This document shows, piece after piece, positions 57,042 to 62,608 of a stretch of 64,000 nt of DNA. The notes under the pieces were generated by a model that searched no databases, had not been told where the DNA came from, and was given only the letters and a program-made list of their open reading frames with translations. A program made the translations under genes and the position numbers. This stretch comes from Haloarchaeobius sp. HME9146 (GTDB lineage: Archaea; Halobacteriota; Halobacteria; Halobacteriales; Natrialbaceae). How positions within the stretch are numbered: the first letter of the stretch is position 1; each line of letters opens with the position of its first letter. The stretch is from contig NZ_JAODVR010000001.1 in the NCBI RefSeq assembly GCF_025399835.1, forward strand, positions 2,294,001 to 2,358,000, read 5' to 3'.

Positions 57042-57770
57042 ATGCGAACGCCACGCGCCGACGACCCCCAGATTCCGGACGCACTCTCCCTCGAACCGGT
57101 CGACCCCTACGAACCACAGGTCGGGTCGCTCCCCCGGAGCGAGTACAGCGCGGAGCAGATGGAGAACGTCACCAAGACCGGGACGACCACCGTCGGCCTC
57201 ACCACCGACGAGGGCGTCGTCATCGCGACCGACATGCGCGCCTCCCTCGGCGGGATGTTCGTCGCGAACAAGGACGTCCAGAAGGTCGAGCAGATCCACC
57301 CGACGGCCGCGCTCACCCTGGTCGGGAGCGTCGGCGGGGCCCAGTCGTTCATCCGGTCGCTTCGCGCCGAAGTGAACCTCTACGAGGCCCGCCGCGGGGA
57401 GGAGATGTCGATGCAGGCGCTCTCGACGCTCGCCGGGAACTTCGCCCGCGGCGGCCCGTTCTTCGCCATCAACCCCATCCTCGGTGGGGTCGACGACGAC
57501 GGGCACCACGTCTACTCCATCGACCCGGCCGGCGGTGTCATGCGTGACGAGTACACCGTTACCGGCTCCGGGATGATGGTCGCTCACGGACTGCTCGAAC
57601 AGGAGTACGAGTCCGGGCTGTCGAACGAGGAGGCCAAAACCGTCGCGGCGCGTGCGGTCCGGTCGGCCGCCGAACGCGACACCGGCTCCGGCAACGGCGT
57701 GTTCCTCGCCGAGGTGACCGGTGAGGGAGTCGACATTCGTGGACACAAGGACTTCGACGAGGTCTGTTGA
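57042..57770 (+). CDS. psmB: Proteasome beta subunit
   Basis: A 242-residue 20S proteasome beta subunit. The propeptide ends in KTG and is removed autocatalytically to expose Thr48 as the catalytic nucleophile (TTTVGL). Other active-site features are the Asp in IATDMRAS, the Lys in VANKDVQK and the SGxxMM segment TGSGMMVAHG. It forms the proteolytic rings of the archaeal proteasome; the alpha subunit and PAN ATPase are not in the window. The gene has its own TATA box and no operon partner. Confidence 0.97.
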   Translation: MRTPRADDPQIPDALSLEPVDPYEPQVGSLPRSEYSAEQMENVTKTGTTTVGLTTDEGVVIATDMRASLGGMFVANKDVQKVEQIHPTAALTLVGSVGGAQSFIRSLRAEVNLYEARRGEEMSMQALSTLAGNFARGGPFFAINPILGGVDDDGHHVYSIDPAGGVMRDEYTVTGSGMMVAHGLLEQEYESGLSNEEAKTVAARAVRSAAERDTGSGNGVFLAEVTGEGVDIRGHKDFDEVC

Positions 57771-58051: not shown

Positions 58052-60430
58052 ATGACGCAACAAAACAAACCACGATTTACCCGCCGGCAGGTGCTTGCGG
58101 GGCTCGGGACAATCGGTGTCGCGAGCGCGGGCGCCGGACTCGGCACGACCGCATTCTACAGTGACAGAGAAACGCTCGAGGGCTGGCTCGAAGCTGGCCG
58201 CGTCGACCTCAGACTTGACTACCGCTCGACCTACAAGCCGTGGGACCGCTACGACCTCCACGACGTGCCGCTCGAAGAGCGCCCGCCGCTCGTCGCGGGC
58301 ACCGACGGCATGACCTACGAGATCGCAGCGGCACCCGCGATCCGTAATATCAACACGGGCGAGGCGCCCACGCACGAGCAGTGGGGCCGCCTGGTCACCG
58401 GCGGGACCGACGTTCCGACCGCGTGTGACATCGACGACGCGCGAGACATCTCGGACTTCCTCCCGGAGGGCTTCGAGACCGAGAACAGTTCGGGCGACCT
58501 GGAGAACCCGGGCCTGTACTACCCGGGCTACATCGACGGCCCGACGGGCATGTTCATCGACCTCGACGACATCAAGCCGTACGACGAGGGCGAGACGACG
58601 TTCAGTCTCCACCTCTGTGGCAACCCGTCGTTCCTCACTGCATCGCTTGGCGAGTGCGAGGACGAGGAGAACGAGGTCATCGAGCCGGAGTACATGGCTG
58701 GCGAACCGCTCGACCAGACGGGTATCTGGGAGGGTGGCGAGTTGTGTGACTACCTGTACGTCATCATCTCGCTCGACCAGGACTGCGACAACCTGACTGC
58801 GAACACCATCCTCACTGAGCCCGACATGGACGACTGGCAGAACGGCGCATCGGCCGATGCGGACTTCGACGTCATCAACGAGAACGTGCTCTACGCGGGT
58901 TCGCTCGCGGGATGGAAGCAGATACTCGAAGACGGCTTCGCACTGCCACCCTCGGGCCCCGGTGGGGCCGGTGGTGACGAGAACGGCGAGGCGAACGGCG
59001 ACGCGACCGCGGCCTCCAGCAGCCAGGTCGAAGTACTGGAGACCGAGACGGTCTTCGCCGAGTTCGTCGAGAACTTCGAGGGCGGCCCACAGATCAACCA
59101 GTGTATCGGCGCGCTCCCGGACGAGTGTGAATCACCCGTCGTACTCGGCGCGATAGAAGAGGGCATGGACCCGGGATTCAACGGTATCTGTTACGACGGA
59201 CCGATTCCAGAGGGGACGACCGATGTCGTCCTCAAGGCAGGCATCGGGTGCTACTACGCCGAGGTCGACGAGAACACCACCGAGATCTGTCTCGTCGACC
59301 CGATGATGGACCCGAACCAGTTCGGCGACATCAGCAACATCACGTTCTTCGAGTGCGATGGGAACGGTCCCGCACCGCCGCCGGCCGGTGGCCCCAACGG
59401 TGAGTGTCCGCTCCCGGGCGCACACTGCTACGTGCTGGAGTGGTACCTCCCGTGCAAGGAGAACGACGGCCCGGGCCGGCTGGGCTTTACCGACCTGCCG
59501 GTGTACAACGCCATCGACCAGAACGGCAACCCGGTCGAAGAGCAGGACGACGACATGGACGGTCAGGGTGGCGAGAGCCGCCTGAGCTTCAACGACGAAC
59601 TGCGCCAGCGCGGCTTCGTCCAGAACGACACGACCATCGGTGTGAACGTCACGCAGACCGACTCGTGCCACCTGACCATCATCTTCGAGGCTGAACAGTG
59701 CCGCCACAACATGCGCCAGGACATCGACATCGAAGGCGAGTGTAAGAGCGACTTCGAGACCGACGCGGACGACTGGACCGCATTGTGTCCGTTCGATGGC
59801 CACGACGCGAAAGCGTCGTTCAACTCCAACGGGTTGCTCCAGTACAGCCCAACCGGCGGGAACCCCGGCGGCTACGTCTTCGTGAACCCGTTCAACTGCT
59901 TCGTCAGGAGTGAGTTACCGACGGTCGATGTCCAGAACATCGCGCCCATCGATAGCGCTATCTGGGCCGTCCAGAACGACCCCGAATCGTGCTTCCTCGG
60001 CGACAAGAGCGCGTTCGTCGGCGGGACGCTGGCGTACGACCTCCGGCGGACCGACTTCAACGGCATGGACCCCGGATTCACCGCGAACAACGAGGTCCAG
60101 GAGTACGACGTCATCATCGAGGGCAGTGCTGGAAGCCTGTTCTACAGCGGGTTCACGATGCCCAACGATTGGACCACGCACACGGTGGAACTGATCCCCG
60201 AGAACTGGTCGTTCCACCCGGTTGGACCCCACGCGCTGACGACCGGGTCCCAGCCGACCATCGAGCAATTCGTCGACGTCCTCAGCGACGTGACGGCACT
60301 GAACATCCGGCTCTGCTCGGTCTTCGAGTTCCTCCAGGTGATGAAGAACGAAGAAGTCAGCATCCAGACGCCGTCTATCCCGCAGTGCTGCCTGGACAAC
60401 GTCTGCCTGAACCTCCCCACCAACGGGTGA
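58052..60430 (+). CDS. SipW/TasA-type exported protein with laminin-B-like C-terminal domain
   Basis: A 792-residue exported protein. The N-terminus has a twin-arginine-like FTRRQVLAGLG (residues 9-19), a hydrophobic core and then AFYSDRETLEGWLEAGRVDL, the cleavage-plus-downstream pattern of SipW-dependent TasA/CalY-family proteins. Residues about 45-560 are acidic, Cys-containing repeats of unknown fold shared with the gene at 60899. Residues about 575-760 resemble the laminin IV/B domain: FLGDKSAFVGGTLAYDLR and, later, DVLSDVTALNIR. The two paralogues and the absence of any nearby sipW or housekeeping genes suggest a surface-exposed structural role, but it is unproven. Confidence 0.82.
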   Translation: MTQQNKPRFTRRQVLAGLGTIGVASAGAGLGTTAFYSDRETLEGWLEAGRVDLRLDYRSTYKPWDRYDLHDVPLEERPPLVAGTDGMTYEIAAAPAIRNINTGEAPTHEQWGRLVTGGTDVPTACDIDDARDISDFLPEGFETENSSGDLENPGLYYPGYIDGPTGMFIDLDDIKPYDEGETTFSLHLCGNPSFLTASLGECEDEENEVIEPEYMAGEPLDQTGIWEGGELCDYLYVIISLDQDCDNLTANTILTEPDMDDWQNGASADADFDVINENVLYAGSLAGWKQILEDGFALPPSGPGGAGGDENGEANGDATAASSSQVEVLETETVFAEFVENFEGGPQINQCIGALPDECESPVVLGAIEEGMDPGFNGICYDGPIPEGTTDVVLKAGIGCYYAEVDENTTEICLVDPMMDPNQFGDISNITFFECDGNGPAPPPAGGPNGECPLPGAHCYVLEWYLPCKENDGPGRLGFTDLPVYNAIDQNGNPVEEQDDDMDGQGGESRLSFNDELRQRGFVQNDTTIGVNVTQTDSCHLTIIFEAEQCRHNMRQDIDIEGECKSDFETDADDWTALCPFDGHDAKASFNSNGLLQYSPTGGNPGGYVFVNPFNCFVRSELPTVDVQNIAPIDSAIWAVQNDPESCFLGDKSAFVGGTLAYDLRRTDFNGMDPGFTANNEVQEYDVIIEGSAGSLFYSGFTMPNDWTTHTVELIPENWSFHPVGPHALTTGSQPTIEQFVDVLSDVTALNIRLCSVFEFLQVMKNEEVSIQTPSIPQCCLDNVCLNLPTNG

Positions 60431-60898: not shown

Positions 60899-62608
60899 AT
60901 GAAAACAAACCTTTCCCGCCGGCAGGTGCTGGCAGGGCTCGGAACGATCGGCGTCGCGAGCGCAGGTGCCGGACTCGGCACGACCGCGTTCTACAGCGAC
61001 AGAGAAGCACTCGAAGGCTGGCTCGAGGCCGGCCGGGTCGACCTCAGACTCGACTACCGCTCCACGTACAAGCCGTGGGAACGCTACGACCTGCACAACG
61101 TGCCGCTCGAAGCGCGCCCACCCATCGTCGCGGGTACCGACGGTATGGCGTACGAGATCGCCGCCGCACCGGCGATCCGTAACGTCGACACGGGCGAAGC
61201 GCCCACGCACGAACAGTGGGGGAGACTCGTCTCTGGAGAGACCGACGTCCCGGCCGCCTGTGTCCCGGACGACGCACGCGACATCTCGCAGTACCTTCCG
61301 GAGGGCTTCCGGACGGAGAACAGCGGCACCCTCGAAGAACCGGGCGTGTACTATCCGGGCTACGTCGACGGCCCGACGGGCATGTTCGTCATGCTCGACG
61401 ACATCAAGCCGTACGACGAGGGCGAGACGACGTTCAGTCTCCACCTCTGTGGCAACCCGTCGTACATCACCGCCTCGCTGGCCGATATGCTCGACCTCGA
61501 GGACGAAGACGGGACGGAGAACCCCATCGAGCCCGAGCTCGAAGCCGGTGAACCCGGGGCCGGTGACCGCTCCGAGGACGAGATGGCTGTCTGGGACGGC
61601 GGCGAACTCGCCGACTACCTGTACGTCGTCGTCTCGACCGACTCCGACTGTGACAACCTGACCGCGAACACCATCTTCGGGGCACCCGACGAGGACGACC
61701 TGAACTTCGAGGACGGCATCAGCCTCGACCCCGACTTCGACATCATCGACGAGAACATCCTCTACGCCGGCTCGCTCGCCGGCTGGAAGCAACTCCTCGA
61801 GGCGGGCTACGAACTCCCGCCCTCGGGCGCAGGTGGTGTGGGCACCAACGGCATGCAGCCGGGGGTCGTCACCCCGGTCATCCAGCCGGCGAACGGCTCT
61901 AGCGTCGAAGCCACCTACCAGGGTGACTTCACCGGTGGGCCGGGCGGCCAGATCAACCAGTGCATCAGCCACCTCCCCGAGGAGTGTGAGGACGCAGAGC
62001 TCACCGGATTGGTCTCCGGACTCAGCGGGTTCTGCTACGACGGCGAGATTCCCGAGGGAACGACCCACGTCGTGCTCAAGGCCGGCATCGGCTGCTACCT
62101 CGCGGAGGTCGACGAGGGCACGACCGAGATCTGTCTGGTCGACCCCGAGCTGAATCCGAACCAGTTCGGCGAGATCAGCAACGCGACGTTCTTCCAGTGC
62201 TTCGAAGACGAGTTCGACCCGGACCCGGAGGGCGACCCCGAACCCGGCGACTGCTTCGTCCCGGGCGCGCACTGCTACGCGATGGAATGGTACCTCCCGT
62301 GCAAGGAGAACGACCCGACCCGCCTCGGGTTCACCGACCTGCCGGTGTACAACGCCATCGACCAGGACGGTAACCCCATCGAGGAACAGGACATGGATAC
62401 CGACGGCCAGGCCGGCGAGAGCCGCCTGAGCTTCAACGACGAACTGCGCCAGCGCGGCTTCGTCGACGGCGACGCGACCATCGACGTGAACGTCACGCAG
62501 ACCGACTCGTGCCACTTCACCATCGAGTTCGAAGCGGTCCAGTGCCGCCACAACATGCGGCCCGTCGAGGAAGAAGAGGTCCCGGTCGAACCGATCGACA
62601 TCGAGTGA
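60899..62608 (+). CDS. SipW/TasA-type exported protein, shorter paralogue
   Basis: A 569-residue paralogue of the gene at 58052. The N-terminus is LSRRQVLAGLGTIGVASAG and AFYSDREALEGWLEAGRVDL; long segments such as STYKPW, AAAPAIRNVDTGEAPTHEQWGRL, PYDEGETTFSLHLCGNPS and CYLAEVDEGTTEICLVDP match the first copy. It ends with a Glu/Pro-rich tail instead of the laminin-B-like domain. Even numbers of Cys in the conserved part suggest disulfides. It has the shared upstream motif, so the two are probably expressed together. Function unknown; a pilus- or matrix-like role is speculative. Confidence 0.82.
   Translation: MKTNLSRRQVLAGLGTIGVASAGAGLGTTAFYSDREALEGWLEAGRVDLRLDYRSTYKPWERYDLHNVPLEARPPIVAGTDGMAYEIAAAPAIRNVDTGEAPTHEQWGRLVSGETDVPAACVPDDARDISQYLPEGFRTENSGTLEEPGVYYPGYVDGPTGMFVMLDDIKPYDEGETTFSLHLCGNPSYITASLADMLDLEDEDGTENPIEPELEAGEPGAGDRSEDEMAVWDGGELADYLYVVVSTDSDCDNLTANTIFGAPDEDDLNFEDGISLDPDFDIIDENILYAGSLAGWKQLLEAGYELPPSGAGGVGTNGMQPGVVTPVIQPANGSSVEATYQGDFTGGPGGQINQCISHLPEECEDAELTGLVSGLSGFCYDGEIPEGTTHVVLKAGIGCYLAEVDEGTTEICLVDPELNPNQFGEISNATFFQCFEDEFDPDPEGDPEPGDCFVPGAHCYAMEWYLPCKENDPTRLGFTDLPVYNAIDQDGNPIEEQDMDTDGQAGESRLSFNDELRQRGFVDGDATIDVNVTQTDSCHFTIEFEAVQCRHNMRPVEEEEVPVEPIDIE

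Follow-up and report, generated by a model that had tools for sequence, protein, structure and literature searches.

The window, a 64,000-nucleotide stretch of a 4.19 Mb haloarchaeal genome, carries a tandem pair of paralogous genes on the forward strand. To judge from identical PhoD-type domains in genomes of one family and in named records, the genome probably belongs with Natrialba, Natrinema, Haloterrigena and Halovivax in that family. The first (58052..60430; 792 aa), delimited from the ORF call and profile matches, encodes a SipW/Tat-type scaffold, predicted to be exported, with a laminin B domain at its C-terminus. The second (60899..62608; 569 aa) encodes the same core and, by ORF call and by profile and similarity searches, lacks the laminin domain. 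Upstream of the pair lies a gene that reads as a proteasome beta subunit (57042-57770), and downstream lies one that reads as an HD-domain-like protein, named from its sequence rather than from a profile. G+C at the three codon positions is 0.55/0.41/0.89 in the laminin domain versus 0.65/0.43/0.85 in the core, and this coding-type pattern rules out a frameshift or ORF artefact in 58052-60430.

The 792-aa protein opens with a signal region (residues 1-34, 58052..58153; MTQQNKPRFTRRQVLAGLGTIGVASAGAGLGTTA) followed by FYSDRE, with a putative cleavage point placed from the sequence and from the signals of paralogues. The scaffold core (residues 35-553, 58154..59710), delimited by paralogue alignment, ends in the family motif Q-C-R-H-N. 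Core identity between the tandem proteins is 73%; their DNA similarity spans 58062 to 59715 and ends at the fusion boundary, beyond which the longer protein has about 235 residues past the core that are missing in its 569-aa paralogue. The scaffold is Cys-rich, with 24 cysteines in all. Within the core we recognized an inserted middle module (residues about 303-445, 58958..59386) that has no Pfam match; the adjacent paralogue has it too, as do exported-looking proteins of 423-532 aa from other haloarchaea, with matches to residues 302-443 in genomes G134, G169, G330, G055 and others. The middle module also has conserved cysteines.

Both tandem proteins begin with an RR-containing signal, xRRQVLAGLGTIGVASAGAGLGTTA-FYSDRE, which is near-identical among all paralogues. 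The initial annotation described the protein as exported. The twin-arginine motif and the SipW-type signal layout support this well, although the NCBIfam models for the cognate SipW signal (TIGR04088; 12.4 bits, cut-off 19) and the TAT signal (10.4 bits, cut-off 16.7) both score under cut-off, as does a weak match to TafA. Relatives of the window protein in a SipW-type gene cluster of another haloarchaeal family (locus L104) pass TIGR04088 with 29 to 32 bits. The window genome also encodes a SipW-like archaeal signal peptidase (L051 11705-13276) that reaches 114.8 bits on TIGR02228 (cut-off 51.85) and 105.8 bits on the SipW equivalog model, under its cut-off of 190. Its gene adjoins one of the SipW-type gene clusters here, and a relative in the genus shows the same arrangement. 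From the signal layout, we infer that the 792-aa protein is exported by Tat and undergoes a SipW-type cut just ahead of FYSD, and it would probably be placed at the cell surface.

The core shares with TasA/camelysin (Peptidase_M73) and the archaeal bundling pili the signal layout A-F-Y-S-D, the first strand region and a SipW-like peptidase in the genome. It differs in its length (about 520 residues versus about 230 in TasA/camelysin), its Tat-type signal, its extra modules and the lack of a match over cut-off: Peptidase_M73 (PF12389) gives 14.7 bits (cut-off 22.5) and covers residues 19-56 only. An AlphaFold model of the full-length protein was poor (pLDDT 43.9), with a core of low confidence. 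Searching the PDB with a core profile turned up neither TasA nor camelysin nor a bundling pilus of archaea, an absence that is no evidence against kinship; the matches that it did return (heat shock protein 60, near E 0.04) were dismissed as chance. The signal layout and the sub-cut-off Peptidase_M73 matches hint at TasA-like behaviour of the core. In Bacillus subtilis, members of the SipW/TasA class form polymers through donor strands, and archaea have bundling pili related to TasA (PMC9674648); by analogy, the scaffold core could serve as a subunit of a fibre or of the cell surface.

A profile search with PF00052 matched residues 647-755 of the 792-aa protein at 34.6 bits (E 2e-8), above the curated cut-off of 22.4 bits, and the C-terminal fragment alone scored 37.6 bits. 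No other Pfam family matched this protein at its cut-off, and a domain copy reversed by hand gave zero PF00052 matches at E up to 10. The matched part (about 59990..60316) covers profile positions 7-105 of 136. All 14 sequences of our domain alignment, the window copy and 13 homologues, pass the PF00052 cut-off, and conservation runs along the entire length of the alignment (GGNPGG, FLGD, an invariant GGTL, V and LDNV). A profile built from the 14 domains matched perlecan (6.9e-6) and laminin alpha-2 (2.7e-5) in the PDB, with E-values ranging to 3.5e-5; there was no further match below E 0.4, the next entry standing at 0.44. The initial annotation had proposed a laminin-B-like domain at the C-terminus from an acidic start and the peptides PGGYVFVNP, FLGDKSAFVGGTLAYDLR, VIIEGSAGSLFYSG and DVLSDVTALNIR. 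All of these peptides occur in ORF 58052-60430, and the acidic start, SDFETDADDW, is a conserved strand, the first of the domain, which resembles STFDEDADGW in homologues. Further along, GGNPGGYV pairs with GGNPGGHI, YDVIIEG with GDVLLAG (homologue sequences second) and FLGDKSAFVGGTLAYDL of the window copy with FLGDREAFYGGTLSFDL of a homologue. The terminal CLDNVCLNL aligns with the invariant LDNV strand of the 13 homologues, which makes it the closing strand in place of the DVLSDVTALNIR first proposed. The proposed extent of 59740-60340 needs correction: the domain begins near residue 564 (59741) and runs on past the proposed end to close with the protein at 60427. Its last part (60317..60427) is a lineage-specific Cys-containing loop followed by the conserved last strand.

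We modelled residues 555-792 with AlphaFold from the 14 sequences (pLDDT 75.4, pTM 0.80), and the last strand was predicted at domain residues 223-233. Foldseek placed six laminin IV chains on top in the PDB, with E-values of 7.4e-9 to 4.9e-8 for perlecan (9i5a best) and of 3.3e-7 and 7.4e-7 for laminin alpha-2 (4yep best); the best fold other than laminin IV reached only 3.9e-3. VIA-align paired 172-173 residues with the laminin IV structures, at Z 16.2 and 15.4 (perlecan) and at Z 14.8 and 14.6 (laminin alpha-2 L4b). The expectation that structure prediction would point to laminin IV was thus borne out, and the C-terminal 229 residues are a bona fide, diverged laminin IV/B (L4) domain with a predicted beta-sandwich fold. 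Chance similarity to laminin B is ruled out by the E-values, the fold match and the reversed control. Next after laminin IV in VIA-align came carbohydrate-binding modules (CBM11, CBM22, CBM27, CBM28 and CBM30; Z 9.5 to 11.2), and a match to the Haloferax turret 8qpg (Z 9.8) was level with these.

The proximity of CBMs raises the question of whether the module works as a CBM on an envelope or environmental polysaccharide, the laminin label reflecting shared ancestry only. Its relatives on secreted-type PhoD phosphatases, where a module for substrate or surface anchoring makes sense, favour this, as does the remark in a review of laminin structures that the LN domain, a different jelly roll of laminins, is closest to bacterial galactose-binding domains (PMC6744579). 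However, jelly-roll sandwiches resemble many CBMs by fold alone, and the CBM matches (CBM11, CBM22 and CBM30 share a similar jelly roll with the window domain) lie clearly below the laminin ones. Taken as a separate explanation, we consider it rather unlikely; it is compatible with an outward-facing binding module and narrows that explanation.

Human laminin alpha-2 L4b (4yep, 4yeq) and perlecan region 3 (9i5a) share the predicted beta-sandwich along the full domain at a significant profile score, but identity to the window domain is only 13-16% and the window copy has extra Cys loops. In animal laminins and perlecan, L4 sits between or within LE (laminin EGF-like) modules, whereas the window copy is appended to an unrelated archaeal scaffold, and a Pfam search found no LE or other laminin domains in the 792-aa protein. 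The protein is not a laminin, as it is the LE context and not the domain that defines laminins, and we do not suggest that it is related to animal laminins outside this one domain.

The window domain has diverged in several ways. It has eight cysteines, at residues 564, 579, 616, 647, 755, 779, 780 and 785, compared with none in most homologues. An insert of about 20-30 residues stands ahead of FLGD, and the loop that joins the final two strands is longer. The RGEYRSGDD (GEY..G.D) motif of homologues is absent, so its ligand, if any, may differ from theirs. In the domain tree, no other full-length copy has a branch as long (2.06 changes per site); the position of the window copy is without support, with PhoD-type copies nearest by path. 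The branch length, the lost motif and the presence of laminin B in only one of the six genomes of the genus, namely the window genome, could indicate a recent, possibly non-functional fusion, with a decaying domain behind a working scaffold. We regard this as highly improbable, since the frame is open to its end with coding-type G+C by codon position, the core strands and terminal LDNV are kept and the fold prediction is confident. The cysteines, together with the Cys-rich scaffold, could also point to a structural module, either a disulphide-braced spacer or a subunit-subunit contact in a filament or envelope, without a free ligand; laminin L4 domains themselves have no known ligand (PMC6744579). 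Against this, the neighbouring paralogue and the syntenic genes of a sister genome (G282) do without the module, which indicates that it is dispensable for the scaffold, and the same module occurs elsewhere on enzymes. A purely structural role thus appears improbable.

We surveyed haloarchaeal proteins for the same domain. Of 392 Halobacteriales genomes sampled, 22 had a PF00052 match over cut-off, and a previous sample gave 14 of 293; the domain lies most often at the C-terminus of PhoD-like phosphatases, the commonest haloarchaeal carrier. Querying genome contigs with the domain alignment yielded 13 loci, and the genome-contig search found no close relatives of the entire 792-aa protein. One example, the L081 protein, scores 168.9 bits for PhoD and 59.4 bits for Laminin_B. 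The PhoD-borne copies (in Natrialba, Natrinema, Haloterrigena, Halovivax and Halomarina) are 32-35% identical to the window copy and likewise C-terminal; unlike it, they sit on an enzyme, lack the cysteine loops and keep the RGEYRSGDD..LDNV ending. The PhoD plus laminin B loci (L004-L014, L081-L088 and L094-L102) often adjoin a gene that reads as CbiX/sirohydrochlorin-like.

A second laminin B protein of the window genome (L058 6144-7370; 409 aa) has a Tat-lipoprotein-like start, RRRLLAAASTMVATGLAGC, and is a putative lipoprotein. Its middle domain is DUF2808-like with a score just under cut-off, and its gene is flanked by hisB-like and transcriptional-regulator-like genes. Another haloarchaeal family provides a SipW-type protein with laminin B (genome G183, L104 6766-8634), encoded in the SipW-type gene cluster mentioned above. 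This protein has a SipW-type signal (TIGR04088, 29.3 bits), a core and a C-terminal Laminin_B domain (73.9 bits). Unlike in the window protein, an extra domain (about 130 residues) separates its core from laminin B, and its laminin B is near consensus and not Cys-rich. A third haloarchaeal family has a frameshifted laminin B copy (L103).

Beyond haloarchaea, methanogens (Methanothrix harundinacea and a relative) encode proteins with three tandem laminin B copies (L079, L080, L092 and L093). These triple proteins are exported-looking and adjoin proteins with DxxEPN repeats. Verrucomicrobial genomes encode single-domain laminin B proteins, of which one ends in a PEP-CTERM-like tail, as well as a very large protein that includes another copy. 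Laminin B is thus widespread but sparse in prokaryotes and not an animal speciality; in bacteria and archaea it behaves as a mobile module added to other proteins. The initial annotation had called the domain rare outside animals and some bacteria, and a haloarchaeal case noteworthy; uncommon it is, but the haloarchaeal count and the methanogen triple copies make it less exceptional in archaea than implied. In a 2014 study, Laminin_B appears in the list of domains linked to how the extracellular matrix of metazoans evolved (PMC4224354), and we found no dedicated paper on archaeal laminin B domains in the open literature (subscription papers not covered). The family itself is already known, and databases would label the 792-aa protein automatically. 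What is new is a diverged, Cys-bearing laminin IV domain as an exchangeable module of a haloarchaeal SipW-type scaffold, and PhoD as the commonest haloarchaeal carrier.

A whole-protein search revealed at least six further paralogous genes in the window genome, and the sister genome G282 has a comparable set. Its syntenic site, which follows purM and the proteasome gene, has three consecutive scaffold genes, none of them with laminin B. The conserved, beta-rich cores of the paralogues all end in Q-[CSA]-R-[HNA]-N, followed by a stop or by an extra module. One SipW-type paralogue (L055 6151-8175) has a choice-of-anchor L domain (NF038133, 225.9 bits) inserted in its core, other members of the scaffold family have vWA-like inserts, and several end in C-terminal domains without a Pfam name, as no Pfam family scored over cut-off on these C-terminal modules. 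Laminin B belongs to this set of exchangeable modules, some of which interrupt the core while others follow Q-C-R-H-N. A further SipW-type protein of the window genome (L051 8163-10037) has a beta-rich-looking C-terminal extension of 230 residues without a family name.

We interpret the 792-aa protein as, probably, a laminin IV domain carried behind a Tat/SipW-type scaffold, with a TasA/camelysin-like core and laminin B as an outward-facing binding module. In this mechanism, the scaffold protein would leave the cell by Tat and a SipW-like peptidase would cut its signal. The core would then join other SipW-type subunits or the cell surface in the manner of TasA/camelysin, and the laminin B module would point outward and bind matrix components such as glycans or glycoproteins. 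Even in laminins, L4 domains have no known function (PMC6744579). For laminin B as a binding domain, a CBM-like role seems likeliest from fold and context, because CBMs come next to it in structure and phosphatases bear this module as well. A more specific proposal is a haloarchaeal system of modular surface display, in which tandem TasA-like subunits combine a constant core with exchangeable modules and laminin B acts as an adhesin for cell-cell or cell-matrix contact. We put this forward tentatively and consider it possible but doubtful; if true, a laminin-type domain would serve matrix binding in archaea. Archaeal laminin B domains on phosphatases and exported scaffolds offer small, simple systems for finding the ligand of this fold, and the scaffold family illustrates a way in which haloarchaea may alter what a repeated exported subunit presents on its outside, through swapped C-terminal or inserted modules.
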